A stretch of 64,000 nucleotides of DNA from Telopea speciosissima (lineage: Eukaryota > Streptophyta > Magnoliopsida > Proteales > Proteaceae). The stretch covers positions 26,459,001 to 26,523,000 of the forward strand of contig NC_057916.1 of the NCBI RefSeq assembly GCF_018873765.1, in the 5' to 3' direction. Position 1 is the first letter of the stretch. Each line of letters starts with the position of its first letter. The notes below the pieces were generated by a model. That model was not told the origin of the DNA. It saw only the letters and a list, made by a program, of their open reading frames with translations, and searched no databases. Shown here piece by piece: positions 1 through 60,400 of this stretch. The translations under genes and the position numbers were made by a program.

Positions 1-16
1 CTGAAGATGGGTTTAA

Positions 17-13930: not shown

Positions 13931-13935
13931 AGCAC

Positions 13936-15345
13936 CTCTTGGTCATCTTAGATTTTTTAAAGTATCCACAGGTGCATAAACGTACGTTGAGCAACGTTAC
14001 TTTTGCAGAAACAGATATTAATGAGACGCGAGATGCTAGATATCAAATCTTTATTTTTTTATTTTCAAGAATGGAATGAATTAATGAATTGGAGGTAGAA
14101 AGAGAGACGTTGTAAAGAACTCGAGATAAGATCGAGGGACTGTCAGCTCGAGCTCTTAGCCGTTAATATAACCCACCCTCTGATAGGGAGGCAACCTAAA
14201 ACGGATTCATGGTCAATGTATCTCCAAATTCTATACAACCCTCTTGGTAATCCTAGATTTTTAAAAGCATCCGCAAGTGCATGAACATACGTTGACCAGC
14301 GTTACTTTCGTAAAAGCAAATATTAATAAGACGCGAGATGCTAGATATCAATCTTTATTTTTTATTCCGAGAATTGAATACATTAATGAAATTGAGGGAC
14401 TTTCGGTTCGAGCCCTTAATCGTTAATATAACCCACCCTCTGATAGGAAGGCAACCTAAAACGGTTTCTTGGTCAATATATCTTCAATTTTATACAACCC
14501 TCTTGGTATCCTAGATTTTTTAAAGCATCAACAGGTGCATGAACGTACGTTGAATAGCGTTACTTTTGCAGAAGCAGATATTAATGATACGCAAGATGCT
14601 AGATATCAATCTTTATTTTATATTTCCAAGAATGGAATGCATTAATGAAATCGAGGGACTTTTGGCTCGAGTCCTTGGCCGTTGATATTACCCACCCTCT
14701 GATAGGGAGGCAACCTAAAATGGTTTCTTGGTTAATGTATCTCCAAATTCTATACAACCCTCTTGGTAATCCTAGAATTTTTAAAGCGTCCATAGGTGCA
14801 TGAACGTGCGTTGAGTAGCGTTACCTTTGCAGAAGCAGATATTAATGAGACGCGAGATGGTAGATATCAAATCTTTATTTTTTATTTCCAAGAATGAAAT
14901 GCAATAATGAATTGGACGTAGAAAGAGAAATGTTGTAAAGAACTCGAGATAAGATCGAGGGACTTTCAGCTCGAGCCCTTAGTCATTAATATAACCCACC
15001 CACTATGATAGGGAGGCAACCTAAACCGGTTTCTTGGCCAATGTATCTCCAAATTCTATACAACCCTCTTGGTAATCCTAGAATCTTTAAAGCATCCACA
15101 GGTGCATGAACGTACGTTGAGCAGTGTTACTTTTGCAGAAGCAGATATTAATGAGACACGAGATGCTAGATATCAATCTTTATTTTTTATTTCCAAGAAT
15201 GGAATGCATTAATGAATTGGAGGTAGAAAGAGAGATGTTGTAAAGAACTCGAGATAAGATCGAGGGACTTTCAGCTTGAGCCCTTAGTCGTTAATATAAC
15301 CCACCCTCTCTGATAGGGAGGCAACCTAAACCGGTTTCTCGTTCC
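13936..15345. repeat. Tandem array of about 260-306 bp units (five copies)
   Basis: Units begin with ctcttggtaatcctag at 13936 (variant), 14241, 14500, 14760 and 15066, giving spacings of 305, 259, 260 and 306 bp. Each unit contains acgtacgttgagcagcgtta, gcagatattaatgagac, gctagatatcaa and aacccaccctctgatagg. The long units (1, 4, 5) carry an extra segment of about 46 bp with gttgtaaagaactcgagata; units 2 and 3 lack it. A sixth, isolated and diverged copy lies at 16380-16670. No protein or RNA gene is recognisable in the unit. Confidence 0.85.
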
Positions 15346-15551
15346 TGAAAATCACTAGGGGTGCGACCGTCATTTTGCATGCCCCTGTGTCAGGGCGCAA
15401 GGGTGGCATCTCTGGCGTGACCGATTGGCATTCTTTCTTCCTATAAATATTTATTAGCTTTTGAATTTGAATTTGAATTGTTTAGATGAGTGATGTGTTG
15501 GATTATTGGATGGGATCATGGAATTCTGTATGTAGTTTTGATTTGGATCAC

Positions 15552-15735
15552 TAGGGGGCCTTTGTTTGGTGCAATGGTAGAAGCTTGGGTTGCCAGCATG
15601 AAGATGCAGGTTCTAGTCTGAGGGTGGCCATTTCGTGCAAAAAATGTTGAAAGTTAGGACCAGCTCGTGTCCACGCCTCCTGGAATCCTATGAAAGTGGA
15701 ACATGCACTGGGTTATGGCTGTTATTGGTGAAGCC
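15552..15735 (+). mobile_element. SINE-like tRNA-derived sequence
   Basis: The segment has a pol III A-box-like tggtgcaatggtag followed about 40 bp later by a B-box-like ggttctagtctgag, the arrangement in plant tRNA-derived SINEs. The 3' end and target duplications are not clear, so length is approximate. It lies between the tandem array and a copia LTR-like fragment. Confidence 0.4.
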
Positions 15736-15799
15736 TGACCTCAATCTAAAAAGTGTTGTGGGGAATCTTCGGAGGGCCATTTCGGCTTCGAAATGTTCC

Positions 15800-16185
15800 A
15801 GAAAGGCCTAAAAGTGCATACATTAGCGTCGTAGGCTCTATCCCCTGTAGAGCTCGTCGAGACCTTCAAATCGATATGTATTTCGACACATGTTCAATTC
15901 TTGTCCGAACCAGACTAGGTGGGTCTTTGGGGCTTTTAGGGGCATCTCTGTACTTATCTGGGTTAGGGTTTCCTTGTAAAATGTTCTTATCACGTTGAGA
16001 GGGTAAGGTGAGATCTAAGGTTTTGTAACTTGCTTCAGAGAAGTAGTGAAAATAGTTCTATCGCTTGCCGTGGAGGTAGCCTACCAAAATTGGGGGTGAA
16101 CCTCATAAAATCTGGTATTGTGTGTTTGTCTTCACTTCTTTTTTGTTTTCTTTTGCAAAAATCCCCATTTTTGGACATTAATTTT
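15800..16185 (+). mobile_element. Copia-type LTR fragment (R/U5-like)
   Basis: The stretch gaaaatagttctatcgcttg, then ccgtggaggtagcc, then gggggtgaacc and ggtattgtgtgtttgtctt, is the layout often seen at the 3' part of plant Ty1/copia LTRs, just before the primer binding site. No tRNA-Met primer site or coding region follows, so this is at most a solo or broken LTR. Confidence 0.45.
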
Positions 16186-16379
16186 CTAACAATGGCCCTC
16201 TGCTTATGAATTTGATTTGAATCTAACCCACTTCATAGCTTACTACAGTAAAGAGGGAGAGGGTGAGGGGGAAGGATAATGTTCAATGCGGTAGTGAATT
16301 TGGTAGCTGTCACTTGGAAAGACTAAGTGGATCCATGTCATAGTGGCCCCACAACCTATTTATGTATTGTCATGCACCC

Positions 16380-16670
16380 TCTTGGTAATCCTAGATTTTT
16401 GAAAGCATCAATAGGTGCATGGACGTACGTTGAGCAGCGTTAATTTCGCAAAAGTAGATATTAATGAGACACGAGATGCTAGATATCAAATCTTTATTTT
16501 TTATTTCCAATAATGGAATGTGTTAATGAATTGGAGGTAGAAAAGAGAAATGTTGTAAAGATCTTAGGATAAGATTGAGGGACTTTCAACTCGAGCTCTT
16601 AGCCGTTAATATAACACACACTCTATGACAAAGTGGCAATCTAAAACGGTTTCTTGGTCAATGTATCTCT
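16380..16670. repeat. Isolated sixth copy of the 300-bp tandem unit
   Basis: Begins ctcttggtaatcctagattt and contains gacgtacgttgagcagcgtt and gctagatatcaa. It includes the 46-bp optional segment, with aggataagattgagg in place of the array's cgagataagatcgagg. It is more diverged than array members and separated from them by about 1 kb that holds the SINE-like and copia-like pieces. Confidence 0.8.
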
Positions 16671-39400: not shown

Positions 39401-42400
39401 TGTTAAGGGATTATGACAATTCAATTATCTTCATTTTTAAGTTTACTCCCTGTTTTGGCTGTTTATGTGAGATTCCAACTCAAAAGCTCAAACTATTGGG
39501 TGGATTCTCCCCACAGTTCAATCCTTTTGTTGGTCTTGCTTTCTCTCCCAAGCTGCCATTCTATTTCATCATCCTCATTGCTTGAATCAGAGTCCTACTT
39601 GTTACATCTATTGACATATTTACATTTTACCCATCCACCCCCCCCCCCCCTTAAAAAAAAAGAAAGAAAAGAAGCACATATATATTGCTAGATTGGAATT
39701 AAGGAATGCTTACCTGAATATTGCTTCACAAACTTTAAATCTCATTGCAAGTACTTAGCTTCAGCTTCTTTTCACAAAAAGGTTGTTGCAAGGTATGTTT
39801 AATTATTGGAAGACCTTTCTATTGAAGAATGAAGAGTCCATGCGAAATGCTTGTTAGGCAAGGTTATTGGATTACAATATTTCAATTCGATCTGGTACAT
39901 TCGAGTATGCAAATTGATCACAACTGTATGACTAATAATATTTATTTTAGGTGATATAAAATGCAGGTTTATACAAAAGTAAATGATTACTTTTGTCATA
40001 AAATATAAATAAATCCAAAGAATGTTATTAGTGTAAAGTAGTCATATTATTGTACAATACTAGATCATAATGCTTGATCATAATATAGCAGTGGATATGT
40101 CAATCTGAATTTTTTTTTGGTGAAATAAAAAACTTACTATTAATAACTGAACATAATAGGTACATTAGTATCCATACAATCCGATTTAGAGCGGTTTAGT
40201 CTGGCATAATTAGCTAAGTTATCAACTGGATGGAGATAAAGTCTAGGTTGTTTTAGAGTAATTACAGACTTAAATAAAGTAAGAAATGACTTAATATCAA
40301 ATAACCAACTAAAAAGTTCCCAAGGCCATTAAAACTCTTTCGGGGATGTCAGCCAATTCTTTACTTCTTGTGACTCAGTCCAATGATCAATTGTCGGCAT
40401 TCCAATGAAAGTGCCTTTACGATTCCTTCTTGGAGTGTACTCTGAGTTCTTGATGCAGATTCATCATCGAAATGGGCTTATTTCTATAGAAATAAGTCTA
40501 GGGTTGGGATATATATATGTCGGGCCTTTGTTCCCAAGGGTTTTCTATGTAATTGGCCACTTTAATGAGCTTAAACTGGGGGTACATAGGTTGTATACGG
40601 GATTAGTCCAATACTTGGTTTATTTTTCATGTTTTAAATTGAACCGGTTGAACCACTGGTTCAATTTAAGTGAAATGTTCCTATTGGCTGATAGGGTGTT
40701 ATATCCTATTGGTTACTTAGGAATCTTCCTAGGCACCGTTTGATAACGTTACTAGTGTTTCTGTGCCGTTTTTGATCAAAAACATATTTTGGTGTTACTG
40801 TTACCAGAATAACGTTACTGGCTTCCTGAAAGGTGTTTGATAAACCTGTTCCAGAAACGTATCCAGAACACTATTAATATTAAAAAGTGTTTGATAAAAC
40901 CTATTTCTGTAATAGTTTTGTATTGATTAATATAAATTACAAATTTACCATTAATAATATAATACATATAAAGTCAATGATGTTAGGACATTAAAATTTA
41001 TTAAAAATCTAAATAAAATGTATATTAAAAGAAAAAGCCAGAAATGCACTAATAGGTTACTATAAATTACAAAAATGTCATTAATATTATAAATTACAAA
41101 AGTTTATGGATCGATTAGACATACAAAAGTTTTAAAGAATACAAATAGGAAATGTTTCATTCGTTTTTGTATCTTCAAAACCAGAGAAGCAACAAAATTC
41201 ATTCAAACTATCAACAAAAAAAGAAAAGAAAAGAAAAAAAACACAGAGAAGCAGACATTGTATGATGCTCATTGTCTTTTATGAACAGTTGCATAAAAAG
41301 AATCATGGTGGATTCGAACCACCATCCCCTTGGAACATGCTTGACACATCCTCATGTTCCAAGTGCTCTACCAATTTGAGCTAAAGACCCAACAAGTAAC
41401 GTTTGAAATTTACAAGTAACCATGAGACCATGCCACAAACCATGCTTCAATGATAATACCCAATTGAGAACGATATAAATACATTATACTATGAAAACAC
41501 ACATACACAGTTTTGGTGCAATGAGAAAGAGAAGAAGAAGAAGAAGAAGAAGAACATTACATAAGCTGTGCTTCTGTGTAACCAGTATGCAATTTAAGCA
41601 TTTCACTCAACAGAGGGGTTATGCTGATGGGACCCAATCACATTTGCTATGTGGTTGGTTCCATTTCCAACTCAGATTTTTCAACAGTCACCAATAACAC
41701 CTTCAAGCTACAAACAAGAGAAAGGTCCTCCAACAGCAACGCTGCCTTGCAATAAATTGCCAGCTCTCCTTACCTTCTCCCTTTGTAATTCCATCCACAA
41801 TCTTCACTATGAGACTCCCTATCAAGTTACCTGCAGCCATACCCAATGTGAAAAGAGCCATTGCCATGCTAGCCATGTTCTTAGAGAAATGAGAGTAATA
41901 AAAATCTATTTGTGCCACACCACTTATTGCCTCAGCTAAGCCATTCAAACATTGCTGTGGAACCAACCACATAGCCGATGGTCAAATTGATTGGGTCAAA
42001 TTCCTAGGAGCTGATGGGACCCAATCACATTTGCTATTTTGCTTTGGAATGGACTTTTGATCAACTCGATTCATTACTTTGATGGAAGCTATAGGTGTTG
42101 TTGCTTGTAATGGAGTTTGGTATAGCCTCTCAATCCTGATTCTAAGGACTTGCATCATATTTGATTTCTTAATGATCTTGGGCCATGTTTGGTGTAGTTA
42201 GAAAGATACTCTCAGTAGCTATCTCTTCTATTCCTTTTCGATTTTTCAAGAAATTGTTACCCAAAAATAAGTTACCATACTTTCTCCACCCTGTCTACCT
42301 TATTGTATGTACAACCCATTCATTAATCAAGTAGAAAGCCTGCACAAATAGAGAGTTTAAGGTTCTTTATGGAACTTCACTGCATTTCAAAGGAATCAGA

Positions 42401-45400
42401 TTAAGGTAGATCCCCCAATTTTTTAGAAGAGCCTCTTTTATAGCTGTGGATCTTACTTCAAAACTTAGGGGGTATGTGGCAAAAATGTTGAAATACTTGA
42501 AAAGGAAAACAAAAACAAAACTGATATATTTATGCAATGTGCATGGGTAATTTTGTCAATACAAGGACTACATTAAGTTCTGTAGCTATCTTATAACAAT
42601 CAGTTGAGACTTGAGAGCAACCTGCCTTTCATGTTATACTATAGTCCATATAAAGTGTCTCTCTCTCTCTTTCTGGTTTTGACTGAATCAGCTATATAAT
42701 TTGGCTGTTTCATGTTTGTGATCCAACACTACAACAACTGGTTTCTTCTATATACCAAAGTGAAGCCATTAAACTCATACATCTATCGATGGGCACTGAA
42801 TCAAGCTCTAAAAACAGAGCAGCCACAGGGTTTAATAGGCTTTCATAGATATGAATCAATATTAACAGAGAACAATGAATAACGCTAAAATCAAAAGGAA
42901 AGAATCCATACCTTGGGTGGATTTCTTCAAGCTACAACTCAAAGGCCCAGCAGAGAAAAGAAGTCAGAGAGGTTACATGAGAATTAACACTTCACATTAG
43001 ATGTAATACTGTAATAGTAATGAATTGGGTCAAAGGTGTAAATGATTTCTTGATAAGTGAAGATATCAGGAAAAACTTCATTCCCCATACCGTTCTTGCA
43101 GAGCCCATAAATGATTTCTTGATAAGTGAAGATATCAGGAAGCCGATCCTTCGCTATCATTAAATGGAGAAGCTCTGAGACCTTAACGTAATTCCCATCT
43201 CTGCAAAATCCAGAAATCAATTTGGTGAAAGCAATATTATCAAGGGTATGCCCAGCTTCAATCACTTGCCGAAGAAGCTCATAAGCTTTGGAGAGCTTGT
43301 TATCCTTACAAAAGGCTCGGATTAGATACCCAACAGTGTCAACATCGCCCACGAGGCCAGATTCCATCATCTTAGCATACAAATCCCAAACCAGATCAGT
43401 TCTCCCAATACGTAGAGAACCCAAAAAAGCTGAATTCCAAACTGATAGAGAAGGCACAAAGTTGAAAATTTTTGAGCCTCGAAAACCCATCATGAGCATC
43501 GTAGATTGCTCCATCATCGCAGAGACATCGAATGAAGGATTCTAAAGAAGGTGGTTGGGGTTGAAATCCAGGGAAATTTAGAAGAAATGATTTTGCAGCT
43601 TTTGCTGCTTTGGCTTCGACGAGGGTATCGAAGAGAACAGAGCAGAATTGAGGGTCAGGAGAGAAACCAGGTTGAGAGGAGACCCATTGAAAGAAACAGA
43701 AAGACGGGAAAGCATTGTTTTGACGCTTAATGATCTCTCCAACGCAGTTAGGATCAAACATACTGTGACTAAGAGAGGGGAAATCAGAGAGGAGTGTCTG
43801 TTCCCATCTCGGTCGTGTTCGTATGGTCTTGCAGACCTCAATCTCCATTTGTTCGTATGGTCTTGCAGACCTCCTCCGCAACACTCGACAATCCAGTCTC
43901 TGTGGCAGCATTAAGAACAAGTTTCCGCAAATTAGGGCATCCCTGTGTAATAACTCGTAGCCCTCCATCAATCGAAGCCGGTGGCCGCAAATTCTTTTCA
44001 GGGACAAACTCACAAGGCGAGAAATCAGAATCAAGGTGAACTGATAAGAATTTATGGGTCAACAAAACTCTAGAACTCCTGGGAGAGTCAATACAGACGG
44101 CAACGAGATCAACATCGGTGAGGTTGGGGAAATGTAAAAGAAGCCGACCTGAGATGAGGATATCCTAGTCGAGCAGCTTGACAGAGTGAACTTGACAGCC
44201 TTGGAGATTCACCCATTGCTTGCAAACGAGTGAATTAGGGTTGCGTTGTGAATCAGGAAGCTTGGAGAATACCCGGAGAAGAAGCTCGTCGGATAAGAGA
44301 GCGGTAAGGTCTGTCTTGGAAGATACTAAAGCAGCTTTCTTCTCCCATTCTGCTGAGACTTTGTGGTCTGGTGGCAGTGGTGATGGCGTTTTGCTAAGAG
44401 TTGAGAGAGCTTTCAGGGAAGGTCGAGCGAGAGTTGAGAGAGGAGACCTTTCTTCAATGGCTCTCTTTCTTTAAAACACGGGTAACACTTGTGGATTTTG
44501 GACCACAAAGTGGTAATAACAACAAATAGTTGTTATGTCAAAAATGTTTTTTTGGGCATAAATTGTTAAAAATTTTGATTTTTGTTATAAAAAACACTTG
44601 AAACAAAACGGATTTATCAAACGGTTTTTCTGTGCCAATTGTGTGTTGGGAACATTATTGGCACAAAAACAACAGAAACAAAACGTTGTCCAACGGTGCC
44701 TTAGTTTAAGTGTTTTAAATTGTTTTAAGTAGTTTAATTATACCTCTCCACAATTTATGAAGAGGGAAGAGTTGCAATAGCTTTAGGATTTGGCCTATGG
44801 CCTTTTATTATAAAAGATTAAATCGTGGGAGGCTTCCCCACAGTTGAATATTTGAAAAAAAACAGAATTGTTGGCTGCCGATGGTTGCTGCTACTGCTCT
44901 TTGGAGTGTTTGCCTTTTGGTTCTATCAAGGAAGAAGGGCAGGTGGATCTCTTGTGACCCTTTACGCCGTGACGGCTGGGAGGTTCTTCTCTGAAGGTGG
45001 TTATATCCTTCAATCTTGTTTAAGCTACTGCCAATGGATTTCTGCTGCAACTTGTTCACCAATTTCTTCTTCTAATCCTCTAATTCCCCCCTAATTGATT
45101 CCCTTTATTTTGGAATAAAAACCTCCCATATTTTGGAATTTAGGGTTTTTTTGGTTTTCACAGAGACAAGGCAAACTAGGGTTGGAGTGGGAGGATGGGG
45201 CTGCAAGTTGGATCGAATGGAGGGGATGTAGTATGGAGGCTGTGGTTTGAATTTGAAGAAATTCTGATGGTCAAATATGGTTGGGCAGCAAGATCTAGGG
45301 TTTAATGGAATTAGGAATAATGGAATTCAAACACAAAAATAAAGGGGATCGATTGGGGGGGGGAATTAGAGGATTAAAAGAAGAAATTGGTGAACAAGTT

Positions 45401-48400
45401 GCAGCAAAAATCCACTGGCAGCAGCTTGAACAGGGTTGATGGATAGAACCACCTTCAGAGAAGAATCTCCCAACCGTCACGACGTAAAGAGTCACAGGAG
45501 ATCCACCTGCCCTTCTTCCTTGATAGAACCACAAGGCAAATACTCCAAAGAGCAGTAGCAACACCAATCGGCAGCCAACAATTCTGTTTTTTTTCTTTCA
45601 AATATTCAACTGTGGGGGAGCCTTCAACGATTTAATCTTTTATAATAAAAGGCCATAGGCCAAATCCTAAAGCTATTGCAACTCTTTCCTCTTTATAAAA
45701 CGTGGAGAGGTATAATTAAACTACTCAAAACAATTTAAAATACTTAAAACTAAGAAGATTCCCAAGTAACCAATAGGATATAACACCCTATCAGCCAACA
45801 GCCAATAGGAACATTTCACTTAAATTGGATCAGTTGTTTATCCGGTTCAAATTAAAACATGAAAAATAAACTAAGGCACCGTTTGACAACGTTACTAGTG
45901 TTTCTGTGTTGTTTCTGACCAAAAACGTATTTTGGTGTTACTGTTACCAGAATAACGTTTCTGGCTTCCTGAAAAGTGTTTGATAAACCTGTTTAAAAAA
46001 CGTATTCAGAACACTATTAATACTGAAAGGTGTTTGATAAAACTTGTTTCTGTAACAGTTTTGTATTGATTAATTTAAATTACAAAATTACCATTTTTAC
46101 TAAAATGCATATAAAGTCATGGATGGTAGGACATTAAAAATTATTTTTTAATAAAAAAAATTTTAAAAAAATATTGAAAAACCATATAAAGAGAATTATG
46201 TGTAACCATTAGTACTGTAATCCATATAAAGTCAATAACATTAGGACATTAATTATTACAAACCCATATAAAGTGTATATTGAAATAAAAGGTACACAAT
46301 CATCTCAAGAATAGTTTCTCCTCATTTTTTGTTTATGTTCGTATTCTTAAGGTCTTCAAGGATATCATTATATATTTTTGACTTTTTCTCTGAAGCTTGA
46401 ATTGCTCATATTAAAATCCTTTTTTTTTTCTTCCTCTTCTTGCATAGCTTTCTGCAAATATTCCCTAACCTGTACAGATGTAGGAGATGAGGAAGAGGTG
46501 ACTGAAGTTGAAGTGCCCACACATTCACTTGACATTGGGTTAGGCTATTTATAACCACACATGATTTCTTCATCTATCCATTTGAAAAACCTACAACGTG
46601 GGCTTTTAATCTGTATTAAAAATAAAAACATTCTTATTAACATTCATATAATCTTAAAAGGAATGTAATGCATGTAAACTTATGTGAATATTAGGCATAC
46701 CCCTGTTGATTTTGGGCAACACCAGAATCTTCGGTCGGGGTTTGCTGCGGTTTTTTATGTTTGTACCTAACATTGACATAATCTTAATTCCTCCACCCAC
46801 ATGAAAAATTCTTTATGTTGTAGACATTTTTTCAAATGTCTTTATTGGGACATTTCTTTGTTATATCTGTACTACAAATGGAGTTGCAAATTTCACATCT
46901 AGCATGTGTAAGCGTATACTGATTAGAAGCCATCTGGTCAAATAAAAAGATAGTATGATAATGGATATGATATAAAAGATATTTAAATATAATACAAAGA
47001 TATAAACTATGTTAAGTACATAACCATTAATCCATCAACAGCATCAATATCCATAAGTTTAAAAGTTAACCAAATAAAATATATAACCATGAATCCATCA
47101 TCACCATCAATCTCCATAAGTATTAAAATAACATTGTTAAAGTATATAACCATGTAGTCCAACTATTATAAAGTCCTCCTAAGTAGGAATCTGAGGTATC
47201 CTCATATCGATGGCCAATTGGTTTGCAATTTGGAGGCATCTTCCTGTCATTTGTCTTGCACTTTCCCTCTGAGTTGTAGTTGCATTAGCTCGTTCAAAGG
47301 ATTGGGGGGGGGGGATTAAAGTCATCTATTATGTGTCTTTCATAACCATTCTCCTCAAACAATTCATCCGCTATTTATTGGTCTTTGATATAGTTATGCA
47401 AACCACAACAAGCCAACACAATTGACGCTTTGTCATTAATATCATACGCCTTCATTGACCTTAAGATTTGGAATCTATTTTTTAGAACTCCAAATGTCCT
47501 TTCAATAACATTTCTTAGAGAGGAATGCCTGTGGTTGAACCACTCTTAAGCCGTTCTTGGTCTCCTGCTCGCCCCATTAAAGTCCGGTAAGTGATACATT
47601 GCTCCTCTAAACGGTGTTAAGTACCCAAGTTGGTTTGCATAACTTGAGTCCACAATATAATACTTACCTAGAAGCATTATGAATTATATGTATTAATATT
47701 AATTATAATAATCAAAATCTGATAGAATAGACCGTTTTCAAATCCTATAATTTACCTAGAGGTAGATGAGGGGAACCTAAAGATGGATCTGCTCTTAGAG
47801 CTTCAAAGACTCTAGCATCATGTGTACTACCTTACCAGCCCGCGTACACAGACGTGAAACGTATATCGAATGAATAAGCACACATGACATTTTGTGTGGT
47901 TATTCCCTTTCGGTTTAGATATCGGGCTTGCTCTCCTGCTTTGACTATTGCACTGATATGGGAGCCATCAATAGCACCGATGCAATCCTAAAAGTAATAG
48001 TAGGTACATCTTATATTTTTAGGAAAAAGGATTGCAGTGATGAATTAACATACTAAAAGTGCATAGTCAAAGTTGAGATTACCTCAAAATAAGGATTGTA
48101 TTTTATCTCATCTGGTATTACCTCATAAGAAGGTGGTTGAATGATTTCCCCCGCTAAATTGACCATAACTTGCAACACAAGCTGAAAGACAACGTGTTGT
48201 TTCTATTATTTCTGTACCAATAATGTTCCCAACACATAAATGGCACAGAAATAGCGTTTGATAAACCTGTTTTGTTTCAGGCGTTTTTGATAACAAAAAT
48301 CAAAATTTATAGCAATTTATGGCTAAAGTAACGTTTTTGTAATAACAACTTTTTCTTGTTATGACTGTTTTATGGTCCAAAGTAAAAAAGTTGTTACACG

Positions 48401-51400
48401 ATTTTACATGAAGGAAAGACCTCTAATCAAAAGTGTTGCCCGATAGGTTTCAACATATGCAATTCTTCTGAAAGCCCTTCTGTCTATTCGAAACGCTCCA
48501 ACCTGCAACCTCCATCATTGTGGAAACAACATATCTTTCGACTCTCAACGGTACCTTCTCAAGTGTTGCCCGATAGGTTTCAGCTTGTGTTGCAAGCTAT
48601 GGTCAATTTATCGGGGGAAATCATTCAACCATCTTCCTATGAGGTAATACCAGACGAGATAGAATACAACCCTTATTTTGAGGTAATCTCAATTTTGACT
48701 ATGCATTTTTAGTATGTTAATTCATCACTGCAATCCTTTTTCCTAAAAATATAAGATGTGCCTTTTAGGATTGCATCGGTGCTATTGATGACTCCCATAT
48801 CAGTACAATAGTCAAAGCAGGAGAGCAAACCCGATATCGAAACCGAAAGGGAATAATTACACAGAATGTCATGTGTGCTTGTGCATTCGATATGCGTTTC
48901 ACGTTTGTGTACGCGGGCTAGGAAGGTAGTGCACATGATGCTAGAGTCTTTGAAGCTGCAAGAGCAGATCCATCTTTAGGTTTTCCTCATCCACCTTCAG
49001 GTAAATTATAGAATTTGAAAACGCTCTATTTTGTCAGATTTTGATTATTATAATTAATATTAATATATATAATTTATAATGCTTCTAGGTAAGTATTATG
49101 TTGTGGACTCAGGTTATGCAAACCAACTTGGGTACTTAACACTGTTTAGGGGAGAAAGGTATCACTTGCCAGACTTTAATGGGGCGAGCAGGAGACCAAG
49201 AACGGCTCAAGAGTTGTTCAATCACAGGCATTCCTCTCTAAGGAATATTATTGAAAGGACATTTGAAGTTCTAAAAAATAGGTTCCAAATCTTAAGGTCA
49301 ATGAAAAGGCGTATGATATTAATGACAAAGCGTCAATTGTGTTAGCTTGTTGTGGTTTGCATAACTATATTAAAGGCCAACAAAGAGCGGATGAATTGTT
49401 TGAGGAGTATCGTTATGAAAGACACATAGTAGATGACCTTAATCCCGCCCCCCAATCCTTTGAATAAGCTAATGTAACTACAACTCAGAGAGAAAGTGCA
49501 AGACAAATGACAGGAAGACGCCTCCAAATTACAAACCAATTGGCCATCGATATGAGGATACCTTAGATTCTTACTTAGGAGGACTTTATAATGGTTGGAC
49601 TACATGGTTATATATTTTAATAATGTTATGTTAATACTTATGGAGATTGATGGTGATGATGGATGCATGATTATATATTTTATTTGGTTAACTTTTAAAC
49701 TTATGGATATTGATGCTGTTGATGGATTAATGGTTATGTATTTAACATAGTTTATATCTTTGTGTCATGTTTAAATATCTTTCATATCATATCTATTATC
49801 ATACTATCTTTTTATTTGACCAGATGGCTTATAGTCAGTATACGCTTACACATGCTAGATGTGAAGTTTGCAACTCCATTTGTAGTACAGATATAACAAA
49901 GAAATGTCCCAATAAAGGTAGACATTTTTTCAAATGTCTACAACATAAAGAATTTTTCATGTGGGTGGAGGATTTAAGATTATGTCAATGTAAAGAAGGA
50001 CAACGTAAGGTACGAACATAAAAAATCGCAGCAAACCCCAGCCAAAGATTCTGGTGTTGCCCAAAATCAACAGGGGTATGTCTAATATTCACATAAGTTT
50101 ACATGGATTACATTCCTTTAAGATTATGTGAATGTTAATAAGAATGTTTTTATTTTTAATATAGATTGAAAGCCCGGGTTATAGGTTTTTCAAATGGATA
50201 GATGAAGAAATCATATGCGGTTATAAACAACCTAACCCAATGTCAAGTGATTGTGTGGGCACTTCAACTTCAGTCACCTCTTCCTCATCTCCTACATCTA
50301 TACGGGTTATGAAATATTTGCAGCAAGCTATGTAAGAAGAGGAAGAAAAAAAAAAGAATTTTAATAGGAAGAATTTAAGCTTTAGAAGAAAAGTAAAAAA
50401 TATATAATGATATCCTTGAAGGCCTTAAGAATATGAACATAAACAAAAAATGAGGAGAAACTATTCTTGAGATGATTGTGTACCTTTTATTTCAATATAC
50501 ATTTTATATGAGTTTGTAATAACTAATGTCCTAATGTTATTGACTTTATATGAATTACAGTATTAATAGTTACACATAATTCTCTTTATATGGCTTTTCA
50601 ATATATATTTTTTATTAAAAATAATTTTTAATGTCTTACCATCCATGACTTTATATGTATTTTAGTAAAAATGGTAATTTTGTAATTTATATTAATCAAT
50701 ACAAAACTGTTACAGAAACAAGTTTTATCAAACACCTTTGAGCATTAATAGTGTTCTGGATACGTTTCTGGAACAGGTTTATCAAACACCTTTCAGGAAG
50801 CCAGTAACGTTATTCTGGTAACAGTAACACCAAAATATGTTTTTGATTAGAAATGACACTAGTAACATTGTCAAACGGTGCCTTATTGGCTTCCTGAAAG
50901 GTGTTTGATAAACCTGTTCTAGAAACGTATCTAGAACACTATTAATACTGAAAGGTATTTGATAAAACCTGTTTCTGTAACAGTTTTGTATTGATTAATA
51001 TGAATTACAGAAATGCCATTATTACTATAATCCATATAAAGTCAATGATGTTAGGACATTAAAAAGTATTAAAAATCCAAATAAAGTGTATATTAAAAAA
51101 AAAGAAAAATTTCACAGACACCCCCTAAAAGTATCCAATATCTCAGAAACTTACCATACTTGGTCAAAAAGGCAAACTTCCCCCTGGCGTTAAGCAGGGT
51201 AACCCCCCCAAGATAAAATGCCGATTTTACCCTCTTGGAAAAATTACTAGGGTAAGGCTGTCCTTTTTCCTCTTCTTCTTCTTCCTCCCTGTTTCCTTCA
51301 TTGTTCAATTTTCCGGCGACTTTTGCCGTAATACAATAATTTTTTTCAGTTGGACCTGCTACTTTTCCTCCATCTGAGCACTCCAAGGTTGGCTCCTCCC

Positions 51401-54400
51401 TGAAAATTTCCCGAACCTGTAGTTACCTGACATCGTTTTTCTTGTTTTCTTTTGAAACCATGGAAGATCTGACTTTTTTAAGGTTTTAGTAGAGTTGTCC
51501 TTCAGAATGCAGGGATTTTCTATTTTTGTGAGCTTTTTATCTCCTTCTCTTGTTTATTTATTTTTATTGATTCTTCCCATTGGAGCGTGAAGAACAGAAC
51601 CTCCGTTTCATGTTGTTGTTGGTTTCTCAACTCGGAGGTGCTCGAAATGGGTATGGAAGAACTGCGATTAAGACTCCTGGAGAAGCATCTCGGATAACCG
51701 GATGTAACTTTACCGGTCCCATTTTTTTCTCTAACACCCCATTTAAACCTCTTTTATTTCTTTATCTCTCCCACTCAACCAAATCCAAATCCAACATCTG
51801 AAACCCTTTTCATTTTCTCTTTGATTGATAGCGGAAGAAGCAAGAACAGGGAAGGGGGGCATGGGACTTCTTCTTCTTCTATGGAATCTTCTGTGAGCAA
51901 AGGCTTGAATTGAATGTTTTAATTCAAACATAAGAAAGTAAAACAAATCATTTTCCTTGTTAAAGTTACATCTGGTTATCCAGAAGGTTTTAGTTACGAT
52001 GAAAAACACAGGAATCAGGGAGTATTCTGTTGGAAAAATGACTCTGAGGGGACCTAGAATTGGGGAAAACTCCACATTTCTTGACACCTAAAGATAGCTT
52101 TAGGAGAAGAGCAAGTAGCAGATTAAAAACTCCAATAGAAAGCAAGAAAACCTTTCACTTTCGATCAATCGAGAGAGAGAGAGAGATGGACTTACACAAG
52201 AGCTTTCATATCGGTGTATTTGGCCTTCTTTTGGATTGAGAAGATCACCCTGACCTGTGAATCTGAAGCCAGAAGAGCGGCAGCGAGAACTCCTAGTCCA
52301 CAAATGGCACACCTCAGGACGAATGGTTTGTATTTGGAGGTTGCAACGGTAGAGCAGAAAGAAACGGTGGTGGTCGGAGGTTGCAGCGCTGGAGCAGAAA
52401 GAAACGAAGAAGAAGAAGAAGAAGAAATGGTGGGTCCCATGAAGAGAATGGTTTGTATTCCCTAAGGGTATTATGGAGATTTCACAAGTAAGGGTAATTT
52501 TGCCATTTAAAAAGAGTTAACAGACACTTAACTGTAGAGACTAACGGAGTGGACTAAGTTGAAATAAATTCATAAAAATAGGGGGTGTCTATGCCATTTT
52601 GACCAAGTATGGTAAGTTTCTGAGATATTGGATACTTTTAGGGGGTGTCCGTGAAATTTTCCCTAAAAAAAAAAGAGACAAAGATGCACTAATAGATTAT
52701 TATAAATTACAAAAATGCCATTAACACTAATACATGTAAAGTGAACGATGTGAAGACATTAAAAGTTATTACAAATCCTCAACAAAGTGTATATTAAAAA
52801 AAAAAAAAAAAGAGAGACAGAGATGCACAAAAAGGGCCTTGAGAAGCACACATTGTATGATGCTCATGATTATCTTTTATGAACAGTTGAATAAAAAGAG
52901 TCCTGGTGGATTCGAACCACCATCCTCTTAGAACATGCTTGAGACATCCTCATGTTCCAAGTGCTCTACCAATTTGAGCTAAAGACCCAACAAGTAAAAT
53001 TTGAAATTTGCAAGTTTGAATTTCGCAATTCCATCCTCTTACTTCATAGAATCTCACTCATAACTCATATACATATTTCAAACTGAATATGGAGGATCAA
53101 TCTATCTTTTTGTTTTCTTTTCCTTTGATATCATCATAAAGGAATGTGGTGTTACCTTCTGGAGGGGAGTTGGTGGAGATTGGAATTATAGATTCTGCCT
53201 TTTCTTGCATTGCCCCTTCAATTGTAGAAACTGAATTTTGTTTGTTTAAGATAAAGAATGAGTATTAATATCAGAAAATAGATTTGTTCTGTGAATAGGT
53301 AGGAGGATCAAACAGGGCAGATTGGTTTAAGGCCCAACCTCCCTCTGCAGCTTCCCCTTTTGAATACCCTTTACATGAACATTCAGGAGAGATGTATTAC
53401 ACTTAAGAACAGTTTTTCAATCTCTCTCAAATATAACTAATAAGGGTTATTTTGCAGGCATTTTGGCATGTAAGTATTACTAGTAAAAACAAGTAAAAGA
53501 ACTAATATGAGGCTCTGTGCATTTAATATAACATTGTAAATTGTATTAACTGTAGAAGGGTAGTAAATGGTTCAAGGAATTAGTATTTCAGTTTGGCTAG
53601 TGTTTAAATGAAATGAAACTGTCCAGAGAAAAAGGAAAAGAATCCAAAAACAGAATAGAAATGTGGTTAATTTAGTGATAATCATGCCTAGCATTTGTGG
53701 CTGTTTCTTCATGTTTGAAAAGAAAAGGAAACAATTTGTAGTTCAGCCAGCATGTCAATGTGGTTAACTTATTATATTACATAAGATTTAGAAAACAAAC
53801 CTCAGCCACCATGTCAAAGTCAAAATACCGGTTCTTGGATCCTCTACTTCCAACCATCTTAGATGGGTGAGACTCAATTGGAACCCCCTACAACAGACCA
53901 AGGAAATTGAGCATCCAGAGCATCAAAGGCTACCAGAAAGTAGAAGATCTAAACAATGTCCGACGTATGAGACTCACCCTTTCTCTCACATATCGTGGCA
54001 GAGCAATGGATGCCAAATTACAAACTGCTGTTTCGGTCGGACTTGTGTACTCAATGATCTCTGTGCACAAGTTTGAAGACTTGATAGTCCCCAGATTCTG
54101 CCGGTTACTTTTTCTGTTGCAAGTATCCTGAAGATGCAAAACAAGGGAATGCAGTGCTAATCTCAAACCAATAACATCCAGCTGGAGATCAACTTACAAT
54201 GGAATCACAGGTAACGAATGAAATCAGATTTCTAGTGAATAGAGAGGCGAGATAGAGAGGCGAGAAACACGCCAATGATTTCTGACAGAAGAGTACCAAT
54301 CCACATCCAAACCCAGAGAGCACAAGATAGAGAGGCGAAAAACAGAGAGAGAGAGAGAGAGAGATGAACAAATTGAACCCTAAATCAGGAGGACAAACAA

Positions 54401-57400
54401 TCATTCGCACCGTATGGTCTTCCATTGAAGAAGATCAGACCATACCATATCAGAGAGTGAGAGAGACAGCGAAAGAGGGTCTATCAGACATAAAAGTGAT
54501 ATAACTGATACTGAAAGTTTCCAATTTAACCAACACCACCACCCCCCCCTCCACAAAGCCACTTTGGTTTGTCCAGTAGAGAGAAAAGCTTTCCTTTATT
54601 TTGTATCCTATCTGTGTTGCTTAATTCAAGTAAACCAATACGTGGCCTTTGTTCATCCTTTAACAATGGAGTAAGGTCTTCATCACCAGATACCTCTGTT
54701 TCATGAGCCCTTTAACTATAATAATTAATGGCTAAAACCCACAAGTGCCTTGCCTTGCCTTGGTTTTCTTGTTGGAGGGCTAAGACTATATGATGTTCCA
54801 TTGCTCCATTAATGGAAGCACCTTTTTATCACATGAGGCCTGAATGCGCTCCAGTTCATGATTAAATAAATTTTCATCTATTCATGTTGGTGAAGAACAA
54901 CATTCCCATTGTCTTTTGACCCAACGAATCTATATGATTAAAAAAGTTCAATTGTATAACCCCTTCCCTAATTTATTAAGCTGGCTGCGATTCGATACGT
55001 AAATCATTCACTTGATCCTTCCAATTAAATTTTCTGATCTCAAGTCCAACTTTTAAACAACTCCAATAAAGAAAAAAAAGGTCAAAATATATACAGTGAA
55101 TATAGGGTGAAAGAGAGTTGTGGAACCTGATTTATTTTTAAGTAGAGACTAGAGAGCAGGAGATCTGAGATCTCCTACCTGTAATCCATCAATACAGCAG
55201 CCCCAACCTGAGCACACTAACTAGAAGGTTCCCATTTTAATGCCATGAAATTAAATGTCTAGATGTAACCCCTTTGGTTTTTTGCATTGTTCAAGAGGTT
55301 AGTGTACTGCATTCAAATTACTTAAATACAGAACAGAAATAAACTTGCCATGTTGCTTTGACACATCCCACCCAACACAAACAATCCAAATAGTTTTCTT
55401 AGGCCAACCCCAAGATTAAACAAATCTAATTCCTTCAGAATTCAAGTAGTTCAGAACAACCCAATACTAAACAAATCTAATTGATTCATATTGGCTTCAG
55501 CCATCTAACAAGTGGCAATCCTGAACAATCGAAGCTCTTAGTTAACATTTAATTAGTGTGCAGTTCATTGTTTTTACAACACCACCAATGGAACTTAAAA
55601 GAAGAAAAAGATGGCAAGTTGTAAACAGTGACACACTTTTTAGAGTTGGAAAGGAAGGCATTATATAAGTTACCTCTTCTATAGTGCACCAAGGCACCAC
55701 TGAACAATGAAGATGCCCTAATTACCTGGCTTTTGGACACCCAAGTGGGTCAATGAAGCATTCACCCATAAAGGTTATTAATCACCCAAATAAAATGATT
55801 AAGGTTATTGAGCATTTTGGTTGGCCATTGTCACTGGTGGGGTTGGTTGGTTGATTTTTGTGTATGTGTGTGTGAAGGAGAGGGGGTGGGGGAGATAATT
55901 TTCCACTCAAACTCCCCACGTAGTGACAGACTCTATTGTTGATGTCATCAAGCACAACAGGGGGGAGGACCCACTGTAGAAAAGAGGAAAGTTGGAAGTT
56001 GGAAGGAAACCACAGGATTGATTGTGGTTGCTGGGTTGAAGAAGAAGGCTGAGAGCCGCATACAGAGAGAGTATTGGAAGAGGTATAGCCCACGGAAGGT
56101 TTATTCAGAAAATGAAAGGAGAGAAAAAGCGAGATTAGACCCAGTTCACCTCGTAGTTTTGTTTTCCTTATGCTCTTTCTGTAAAAAATTTAATAGAAAA
56201 ACTATTGACAAGTTAATTAGACAGTTTGGGAAGGTCAGAGCAGGGGAATTAAGAGAGCAAGCAGCCACATAGCAGCAGAAGGTCATATCGTTGATGTCCT
56301 TGGCACCAAAGTTGCAGAAATCACAATGGAATTCCTTTAAAGTTGGATTTGGGGGGAAGGATGTCGGCAACAGGTTGAATTTTGTTGTTCAGATCTAGGG
56401 TTACATAGCAGCAGGTTTCTTGGTAGAGAAAACCAGTTTCATAGCAGCAGGTTTCCTTGAGATCTAGGATTTCATAGCAGAGAGAGAGAGAGAGAGAGAG
56501 AGAGTTTTACCTGGATGGTTGAGGTACAGCAGCAGAGAACTCCCGAGCTTGTTGCGAGGACGATGATAGCTTCAAGTCCCAACTCGAGCAGAGGTTATGA
56601 TGAAGACTCCAAGTCCCAACTCAAGCAGAGATCAGCGAGAGAGAGAGTTGCAGGTTTTGGGGGTTTTTGACGGTTTGGAACTTTCACAGCAAGAGAGAGT
56701 TGAGCGAGAGATGAGCCATGCCTTCGCGTATAGCTCTTGTCGGGTAACAGTTTTTGTTAAAAGCCACAAAACAGTCATAACAACAAATAGTTGTTATTTC
56801 AAAAACGTTATTTTAGTCATAAATTGTTATAAATTTTGATTTTTGTTATAAAAAACACCTTAAACAAAACAGGTTTATCAAACGGTTTTCTGTGCCTTTT
56901 GTGTGCTGGGAACATTATTGGCACAGAAACAAAACGTTGTCAAACGGTGCCTTAGTTTATTTTTCATGTTTTAAATTGAACCGGTTGAACAACTGATCCA
57001 ATTTAAGTGAAATGTTTCTATTGGCTGATAGGGTGTTATATCCTATTGGTTATTTAGGAATCTTCTTAATTTAAGTGTTTTAAATTGTTTTAAGTAGTTT
57101 AATTATACCTCTCCACGATTTATGAAGAGGAAAGAGTTGTAATAGCTTTAGGATTTGGCCCATGACCCTTTTATTATAAATGATTAAATCGTGGGAGGCT
57201 CCCCCACAGTTGAATGTTTAAAAAAAAACAGAATTGTTGGCTGCCGATTGTTGCTGCTACTGCTCTTTGGAGTGTTTGCCTTGTGGTTCTATCAAGGAAG
57301 AAGGGCAGGTGGATCTCTTGTGACTCTTTACGCCGCGACGGCTGGGAGGTTCTTCTCTGAAGGTGGTTCTATCCTTCAACCCTGTTCAAGCTGCTGCCAA

Positions 57401-60400
57401 CGGATTTCTGCTGCAACTTGTTCACCAATTTCTTCTTCTAATCCTCTAATTTCCCCCCACCCAATCAATCCCTTTTATTTTTGTGTTTGAATTCCAGTAT
57501 TCCTAATTCCATTAAACCCTAGATCTTGCTGCCCAACCATATTTGACCATCAGATTTTTTTCAAATTCAAACCACAGCCTCCGTACTACATCCCCTCCAT
57601 TCGATCCAACTTGCAGCCCCATCCTCCCACTCCAACCCTAGTTTGCCTTGTCTTTGTGAAGCCCAAAAAAAACCCTAATTCCAGAATATGGGAGGTTTTT
57701 ATTCCAAAATAAAGGGGATCAATTGGGGAGGAATTAGAGGATTAGAAGAAGAAATTGGTGAACAAGTTGCAGCAGAAATACACTGGTAGCAGCTTGAACA
57801 GGGTTGAAGGATAGAACCACCTTCAGGGAAGAACCTCCCTGCCGTCACGACGTAAAGGGTCACAGGAGATCCACCTGCCCTTCTTCTTCCTTGATAGAAC
57901 CACAAGGCAAACACTCCAAAGAGCAGTAGTAGCAACAATCGGCAGCCAACAATTCTGTTTTTTTCAAATATTCAGCTGTGGGGGAGCCTCCCACGATTTA
58001 ATCTTTTATAATAAAAGGCCATAGGCCAAATCCTAAAGCTATTGCAACTCTTCCCTCTTCATAAATCGTGGAGAGGTATAATTAAACTACTTAAAACAAT
58101 TTAAAACACTTAAGCTAAGAAGATTCCTAAGTAACCAATAGGATATAACACCCTATCAGCCGATAGGAACATTTCACTTAAATTGGACCAGTGGTTCAAC
58201 CGGTTCAATTTAAAACATGAAAAATAAACTAAGTATTGGACTAATCCCGTATGCAACCTATGTACCCCTAGTTTAGGCTCATTAAAGTGGCCTATTACAT
58301 AGAAAACCCTTGGGAACAAAGGTCCAACATATATATATCCCAACCCTAGACTTATTTCTAAAGAAATAAGCCCATTTCGATGATGAATCTGCATCAGTTC
58401 TGCTTCCTGTGCTGACCCTGCAAATCCACAATTCATAGAAGAGGCATATATAGTTCATGGTTGTGGATAATTAAATAGCCATCCTCCATAACGTGAGGAA
58501 TTGGTATAGCTTCCATCTGAAATGATTAGACATGTGTCCTTTGTATCCAAGTTAAGGTAAAAGGGTATAGGAAATGATTTAGGATTATGTGCAGAGGTAA
58601 TGCTTGATGGTGGATGGAGCAATTCATTAGCTGTACTTGGAATCAGATTTGACTCTTCTATCCATCTGGTAATGTGATCCATGATGATCGTTGGGTTAAT
58701 AGGTTGATTTTGGAACACCACCTTGTTCCTATGGTGCCATATAAAATATAGAGTAATGCTTGCAATGCTTAAGATTCGGTTCCCATCAGATTTGCTACAA
58801 CTGGGAAGTGCCAACAGATTGGAGAAAGCATCAACTATTGAGCTTCCTACAAGGTTTTCAGATCTATTCCCCAAGGGACCTGCAGCCCAGATTCTTTTTG
58901 AACTTTTACAAGAGAAGAATAAGTGCCATGAAGATTCTGATTCCTCCTTACAGAAGGGGCACAAGTCAAGGCTTTGATTTAACCAAGAGAGTTGAGATTT
59001 AGTGGTAAGACCATTGTGAAAAACTTTCCATAAGAAGAGTCTGAATTTTGGGTGAACTTATGGTTTCCAAAATTTTGACCAAATAGAGATTTGATTGGAA
59101 TAATGATGAGAAGGAGAAGAGAGAGAAGCAGCAATAATTTTTTTGGTCAACGAACCAGATTTTGATAATGGAGGAAAAAGGTTATCATTGTGGTGGTGTA
59201 GTGAAAGTGGGATGGATAGAATAAGGTTACTAATGGATTGTGGGAAAATGGATGTGAGTAGAGATGTATTCCAAGACCTGTTAGTGATTAATTCACTAAC
59301 AGATTGGTACATAGGGTTGGGCTGTGATGATTGGTTTAAGGTAGTGAACAGAGTTGTCGGAATCCAAGGATCGGACCAAGTATTGACATTTGAACCATCC
59401 CCAATACGCCATTGAACCATTTGTCTGAAGGTAGGGAGGACAGTCCAAATGCTATTCCAAGTCCAGGAACCCAAAGAAAGTCTGATCTGTGGATTTAGAA
59501 TAGATGATTTTGGGAAATATTTGCACTTCTGCATCTTAGCCCAAAGAAAATCAGACTTAGAAACCAAAGAAAATCAGGCTTAGAAACCAGCCTCCAGGTA
59601 AACTTGAGGATAAGAGCTCTATCAATCTGAATTTGTATCTGGTTACTGGAGATATATATATAAAAAAAGCACATGCATTTGTTCTGGATAAATGTCTGAA
59701 TAAAACAGTTACAAATTATTTTTTCGATCTGGTTTATTTGCTATCTGCTTACATCCCTGAACATATCCCTAAAAAGCCAGGTAAGTTGCAAATTGCCAAC
59801 AGGAAATCTGACCAGGCCAAGTGAAATATAAAATCTAGGGGGGACTGAACATCTGCAAGAGGGTCTATATGGACTGAACATCCGGTGCTATTGTTTGCAG
59901 TGTTATTTGGATGGTTATTTTGGTAAATTGGAGGTGGGACTTATTTAGGGATAATTGACAGGTTGCCTACACTTTTGATGCGGGGCCCAATGCAGTTTTA
60001 ATTGCTCGTAATAGAAAAGTTGCTTCTCTTCTGCTTCAAAGGCTGCTGTTCTACTTTCCTCCACTTCCAGATACTGATATGGATAGGTATGGCATGATCA
60101 GATGTTTTTCTGAAAAAAAAAATGTTGACCTTTTGGAAAAGACATTTCACTGTCATATTTCACTCCTGGAGCTGATTGGTCTTTTAACAAATTTTCAGTT
60201 ACGTTCTTGGAGATAAATCAATACTAAAAGATGCTGGTGTTGAAGCAATGAAAGATGTAGAAGCTTTGCCATCGCCTCCAGAACTTATGAACAATGTCCC
60301 ATCCAAGAGACATGCAGGAGATGTAAGTTATTTCATCTGCACCAGACCAGGTAGAGGCCCTATTTTGCTTGCTGATGAAAGCCAAGCCCTTCTCCACCCC

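Follow-up and report, generated by a model that had tools for sequence, protein, structure and literature searches.

Gene capture by PIF/Harbinger transposons is known in plants. According to the portions of the sources available, Pifvine-3 of grapevine (2008, PMC2528002) carries captured exons and introns, some of them common to several copies, and an automatic survey of maize and rice (Gisby and Catoni 2022, PMC8903248) recovered Pack-PIFs, non-autonomous PIF/Harbinger elements with coding DNA between conserved ends and local insertions of related copies. Here we describe an element of this kind, E1, from a 64,000-nucleotide stretch of the Telopea speciosissima genome (NC_057916.1, positions 26,459,001 to 26,523,000; hereafter the window), in which fragments of an NPF, a PPR and an F-box gene lie between Harbinger-type ends. 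Pifvine-3 holds its captured DNA in a long 5' region beside the element's own genes, whereas E1 carries pieces of three genes and no transposase was found in it. Also, unlike the automatic survey, the present analysis traced the parents, a possible intermediate, the junctions and a probable transfer of cargo to Mutator-type elements. An earlier, sequence-only reading of the window had called Harbinger-type capture much less documented, a statement that needs tempering given the grapevine, maize and rice cases. Gene capture of the E1 kind is already known; what is unusual, and likely to surprise specialists, is the hand-over from one transposon type to another.

We are highly confident in the overall account, namely that E1 is a non-autonomous gene-carrying PIF/Harbinger element (Pack-PIF) with a template-switched cargo, and that the composite spread by transposition.

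Structure and insertion site of E1

E1 occupies positions 40732-44700 of the window (3,969 bp), starts with GGCACCGTTTG and finishes with CAACGGTGCC, which as reverse complement (GGCACCGTTGG) has one mismatch to the left end. Short inverted ends of the GG...GTTTG type are typical for the PIF/Harbinger superfamily, and both ends of E1 conform to it. By itself the motif is no commoner in the window than expected by chance (10 hits at 2 mismatches or fewer, against 8.0 expected; 10 were reached by 27 of 100 shuffles), so that the case for an element rests on the insertion itself. E1 is an insertion into a palindromic foldback element at a TTA target: a single TTA is found at the insertion point in three uninterrupted homologous arms (57065, 58115 and 45750), the last being the other arm of the same foldback element that E1 interrupts, and the flanks of E1 are 96.1% (282 nt) and 92.5% (1,215 nt) identical to the empty copy. 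The sequence-only reading had placed a Harbinger-type element at these very boundaries, with a TTA target visible as an empty site in the first two arms. Both claims hold, the boundaries being exact and the proof lying in the insertion and its empty sites, not in motif frequency. Its subterminal regions of about 500 bp are to be replaced by a shared left module of about 738 bp and a right one of about 235 bp. The organization of E1 is as follows.

40729-40731, no strand: left target flank CTA, taken as a mutated TTA on account of the single TTA in the three uninterrupted arms
40732-41469, plus strand: family left-end module (E1 1-738), starting with GGCACCGTTTG; its first 501 bases give at least 41 matches in the genome
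41299-41390, minus strand: tRNA-like sequence followed by TTTTT (Rfam tRNA, 44.1 bits)
41623-41663, no strand: scar in which a 28-nt snippet of the C3 piece (41994-42636) is joined to an 18-nt inverted NPF snippet with a 5-nt overlap
41661-41978, minus strand: NPF (PTR2) fragment, two donor segments fused at CCA (PF00854, 2.6e-9)
41994-42636, no strand: captured piece of 643 nt with no gene recognized (93.5% identical to L035, C3:7.88 Mb)
42774-43041, no strand: module common to other places (L043, L040 and a C7 copy)
43039-43854, minus strand: PPR fragment (PF13041, 1.4e-23)
43816-43873, minus strand: join of PPR to F-box, bearing a direct repeat of 24 nt spaced at 34 nt; L042, a Mutator-type element, has this junction too
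43871-44400, minus strand: F-box gene fragment (PF12937, 1e-4)
44466-44700, plus strand: right-end module, ending with CAACGGTGCC; at least 40 genome matches to 44450-44700 at 84-100% identity
44701-44703, no strand: right target flank TTA

The foldback element itself occurs in two copies of about 1.3 kb in the window (40614-45874 and 56951-58233), bordered by inverted host flanks (40451-40614 and 58233-58396).

As the sequence-only reading had stated, E1 yielded no transposase, neither among the five E1 frames scanned with Pfam (71 listed) nor by tblastn of four transposase/GRF pieces against 51 fetched loci, which include E1 1-3752 as L029. With host coding DNA between its ends and no transposase found, E1 has the make-up of a Pack-TYPE element. 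All 21 aligned left ends contain the tRNA-like sequence; ARAGORN recognized no tRNA at its position in E1. The sequence is conserved at 0.960, a value intermediate between its flanks at 0.919 and 0.972, which gives no sign of constraint; a Pol III function was rejected on this ground.

Distribution of the family

The genome (823 Mb, 1,287 contigs) was searched with the first 501 bases of E1, which gave at least 41 matches (40 of 314 candidates scored), and the 20 best of the 40 other matches were fetched and compared. E1 1-733 or 1-738 is matched in all 20. The NPF-PPR-F-box interior recurs in five of them, L009 (C8), L010 (C5), L011 (C4), L013 (C6) and L019 (C4), at 92-98% identity and with assorted gaps and inserts. 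The E1-type cargo is thereby found at six or more places in the genome, having moved as a unit. Both ends could be placed in 16 of the 20 loci, and 14 of these 16 have identical 3-bp flanks (TAA or TTA in 12, TTT and TAG in one each), in keeping with the 3-bp target duplication, usually TTA or TAA, of PIF/Harbinger elements; E1 itself is flanked by CTA and TTA, its empty site being TTA. The sequence-only reading had granted that the ends might be mere chance matches, which does not agree with at least 41 left-end and at least 40 right-end matches in the genome together with these flanks. The search that it had proposed, for other elements with shared ends, thus recovered a family of which five of the 20 fetched loci hold the same cargo.

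Two of the sisters, L010 and L011, contain 1.5 kb that E1 lacks, 94% alike between the two, in which a protein-kinase fragment lies (Pkinase, 4.6e-13), and because of this E1 is probably a shortened form of a longer sister type. Other cargo was also found: of 113 frames from nine other members scanned with Pfam at 1e-4, five match Cyclin_N and none matches any other family. We read the five frames as part of a cluster of related frames in six members. The proposal of a transduplicating Harbinger family in this genome is borne out by the E1 cargo at six places, these Cyclin_N frames and a ribonucleotide-reductase fragment in a neighboring element (E3, see below).

Origin and assembly of the cargo

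The interior of E1 is assembled from genes that lie on three other large contigs and from non-coding pieces, and the tRNA-like sequence also lies inside the element. All three gene fragments are on the minus strand. On stop-to-stop frames the PTR2/NPF and PPR_2 matches exceed the Pfam cut-offs, and the F-box-like match (22.4 bits) falls just under its cut-off of 24.3, the fragment being 94.7% identical at the DNA level to an uninterrupted F-box gene. Hence the three genes and their common orientation agree with the sequence-only reading; the leucine-rich repeat (LRR) part that it attached to the F-box receives no support from Pfam (LRR_4, E=0.1).

The likely parents, whose frames were judged in the stretches read, are uninterrupted. 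For the NPF fragment this is L037 (C8:20.71 Mb, 297-codon frame), in which the two segments fused in E1 (96.1% and 98.2% identical) lie 696 bp apart; for the PPR fragment L041 (C10:44.82 Mb, 93.8% over 785 nt, 578 codons open); and for the F-box fragment L044 (C6:58.05 Mb, 94.7% over 530 nt, 423 codons open). With parents on three different large contigs, a host locus that holds the fragments together outside an element, which would have spoken against capture, was not found. Among 17 PPR matches in the genome (15 of 15 candidates scored; two matches of 34-35 bases on C7 lay outside the fusion check), the PPR/F-box fusion is held by six Harbinger copies and L042. A conserved chimeric protein was considered and rejected: the longest minus-strand open frames of the six members measure 140-308 codons and are not one frame throughout, and since they differ between members such a protein is not supported.

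The eight junctions with both donors known were compared with random breakpoints in the same donors. Seven share an exact overlap of 3-5 nt, for which the chance of 3 nt or more is 0.059 per junction and the probability of seven in eight is about 2e-8 if junctions are independent. Close to the junctions there are also short snippets, namely the 28-nt C3 piece, the 18-nt inverted NPF piece, a 34-nt PPR piece duplicated at the left edge of that fragment (43039-43072 and 43108-43141, repeat D8) and the 24-nt repeat, at its 34-nt spacing, that ends in the F-box join. Because of the shared bases and the duplicated or inverted snippets, the gene pieces probably entered by DNA repair synthesis that would have switched templates repeatedly at 3-5-nt microhomologies. 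In the portions of the source available, template-switching capture has been proposed likewise for animal Pack-TIRs (PMC8277862), with microhomologies of 1-36 bp and a median of 2 bp; those are animal elements, whereas E1 comes from a plant, drew on several donors and has scars of more than one step.

Capture may have been stepwise. One locus, L043 (C10:49.93 Mb), has the right end, an F-box piece that extends 85 bp beyond the PPR join and the adjoining module, and no PPR, which suggests that the F-box was captured before the PPR. Identities to the parents are 96.7-99.5% for NPF, 94.7-96.8% for F-box and 92.3-94.0% for PPR, and the closeness of NPF to its parent suggests that it was captured last. 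Such identity levels are weak evidence on order because the genes may evolve at different rates. The finished composite would then have spread by transposition.

Alternatively, the pieces could have entered by fusion of neighboring elements, aberrant excision trapping the intervening DNA, as reviewed for Pack-CACTA (PMC13317346, in the part available). Of the left half of E1, the left module, 732-894 and the first part of the C3 piece recur in L016 and partly in L021; of the right half, the module, the F-box and the right end recur in part in L043, so that E1 could be a hybrid of two elements; also, related elements (E1, E2, E3) lie close together in the window. However, the donors are non-adjacent, on other large contigs, and the duplicated or inverted edge snippets of 28, 18, 34 and 24 nt are not expected from simple trapping. 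We regard this alternative as unlikely and retain template switching as the preferred mode of capture.

Probable hand-over to Mutator-type elements

Four further loci with PPR and F-box pieces, L042, L045, L047 and L048, have inverted ends of 51-86 nt and 9-bp target duplications, as do Mutator-like elements (Pack-MULEs). In L042 (C4:15.34 Mb) the inverted ends measure about 80 nt, and the 9-bp flank repeat (TTAAAAGAA) is perfect. The interior of L042 matches E1 2419-3512 at 94.4%, running through the PPR/F-box junction with its repeat, and it also holds, in inverted orientation, two stretches (169 and 51 nt) with 100% identity to L011. The join between these two stretches coincides with the internal-deletion point of the Harbinger sister L013, with one base different at the join. 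The most likely direction of transfer is thus from Harbinger to Mutator, since L042 contains a subset of the fusion along with a deletion junction whose other occurrence is in a Harbinger copy.

In the other three loci the PPR and F-box pieces are shorter, stand in the same order and resemble E1 at 92-95%; the flank repeats are T9 in L045 (within a T-run and therefore weak), TAAATAGAA in L047 and TATTTTTTT in L048. Diagnostic sites were defined as fixed in Pack members and different from the parent, their polarity not being known. Of 31 PPR sites 30 can be read in L042, and 28 of these show the Pack state; of 7 F-box sites 5 can be read, and all 5 show it. L045 has the Pack state at all readable sites (9 of 9 for PPR, 3 of 3 for F-box). 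The 31 PPR differences between Pack and parent comprise 16 non-synonymous and 15 synonymous ones, on which account some of them probably arose in the parent. Given this, the missing polarity and a joining stretch that differs, descent of the L045, L047 and L048 cargo from Harbinger cargo is likely, not proven.

It is also conceivable, if rather improbable, that the PPR/F-box fusion originated outside the Harbinger family, either at a host locus or within a Mutator-type element, and was acquired by that family later. The cargo tree is an unresolved star that does not give the direction of transfer, and the Mutator copies are not nested within the Harbinger copies (Mutator group support 71.7/65), as such an origin would allow. 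Yet L042 covers only E1 2419-3512 of a cargo whose PPR starts at 2339 and whose F-box ends at 3669, its inverted piece includes the internal-deletion junction of L013, and no further fusion locus was found among the PPR matches. Accordingly, we consider it probable that fusions built in one superfamily passed to another: L042 would have copied a rearranged part of a Pack-Harbinger, with both fusion and deletion junctions, and the L045/L047/L048 subfamily probably did likewise and then multiplied. Passage between DNA-transposon superfamilies has been described, in the part of the source available, for fungal TET/JBP genes (PMC12730594). That case concerns a dioxygenase gene in fungi, mostly at less than 70% DNA identity, whereas here a fused pair of plant gene fragments has shared junctions at the DNA level. 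In the open-licence literature searched, no report was found of Pack cargo passing between superfamilies in plants.

Transposase-bearing relatives and neighboring elements

Two related elements lie next to E1 in the window.

45875-50882, no strand: E2, a 5-kb palindrome of two Harbinger half-elements with the family left end at both termini and DDE_Tnp_4 and GRF zinc-finger relics
50885-56951, plus strand: E3, a second gene-carrying family element, about the first 83 bp of which were lost at the E2 junction

E2 starts 1.2 kb downstream of E1, and its arms contain relics of a DDE_Tnp_4 transposase (PF13359, 6.6e-10) and a GRF zinc finger (9.7e-7). A genome search with the transposase piece gave at least 150 matches (150 of 402 candidates scored). 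From E2, a left end was predicted about 1.5 kb beyond the transposase, and in both copies tested (C11:12.15 Mb and C2:8.23 Mb) it was found, at a distance of about 1.57 kb from the match to the transposase; it ends in GGCACCGTTTG and is 86-88% like the first 262-287 bases of E1. By comparison of left ends, the DDE_Tnp_4 transposase thus occurs in relatives that share the E1 left end (E2 and two of two tested copies), and a PIF transposase supplied in trans would recognize the shared ends and move E1. A second inverted pair of transposase matches is present on C4 (22526551, minus strand; 22528043, plus strand), and for this reason the E2-type palindrome may itself be mobile.

E2 is joined to the left end of E3 at a TTA. 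The E2-E3 block is flanked by TAA and TTA in inverted instead of direct orientation, and so did not arise from one simple insertion. E3 has parts of the left end, the tRNA-like piece (with its T-run, at 52897-52988) and the right end in common with E1, at 82-92%. Its ribonucleotide-reductase large-subunit fragment (about 53767-54146, 6.6e-20) is 97% like C7:5.98 Mb and was the only clear family among ten further E3 frames scanned; one more frame gave no family. An A-rich run of E3 houses a nested element of about 1.55 kb (51106-52660) with 69-nt inverted ends (97%), which has no match to the Pack-MULE L045. Elsewhere in the window, at 13933-16654, repeats of 133-238 nt occur in up to six copies at a spacing of about 260-1,315 bp.

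Discussion

Several observations weigh against the account given above. Concerning the ends, the flanks of L022 and L024 do not match, their right-end matches being 76-77% with extrapolated ends, and no right end was found in 4 of the 20 fetched loci. One of the eight junctions has no overlap and includes 15 unexplained bases, and at the NPF/NPF junction a mismatch follows right after the three shared bases; entry of the pieces by neighbor fusion could also have occurred. The order of capture draws on a single intermediate, L043, whose left end was not found within 7.7 kb past its right end, and the F-box is closer to its parent than the PPR, contrary to its earlier capture. As regards mobilization, the right end of transposase-bearing copies is known from E2 alone, where it is truncated and 81% identical, and we infer the action of a PIF transposase on E1 from sequence comparison. 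That E1 is no element, and consists of degenerate gene pieces brought together by chance with short edge matches, is a notion for which only the chance frequency of the end motif speaks. It can be set aside: the foldback element exists in filled and empty copies, which refutes it, and six insertion sites with the same interior and identical flanks in 14 of 16 loci oppose it.

A single genome, then, displays a multi-gene Pack-Harbinger together with its parents, a possible intermediate, its scars and sisters and the likely source of its transposase, a worked case that makes gene pick-up by DNA transposons testable at base resolution. The transfer from Harbinger to Mutator, which we think probable, means that fusions of gene fragments can persist beyond the transposon family in which they arose; if true, transposon cargo would be a common pool for several transposition systems.

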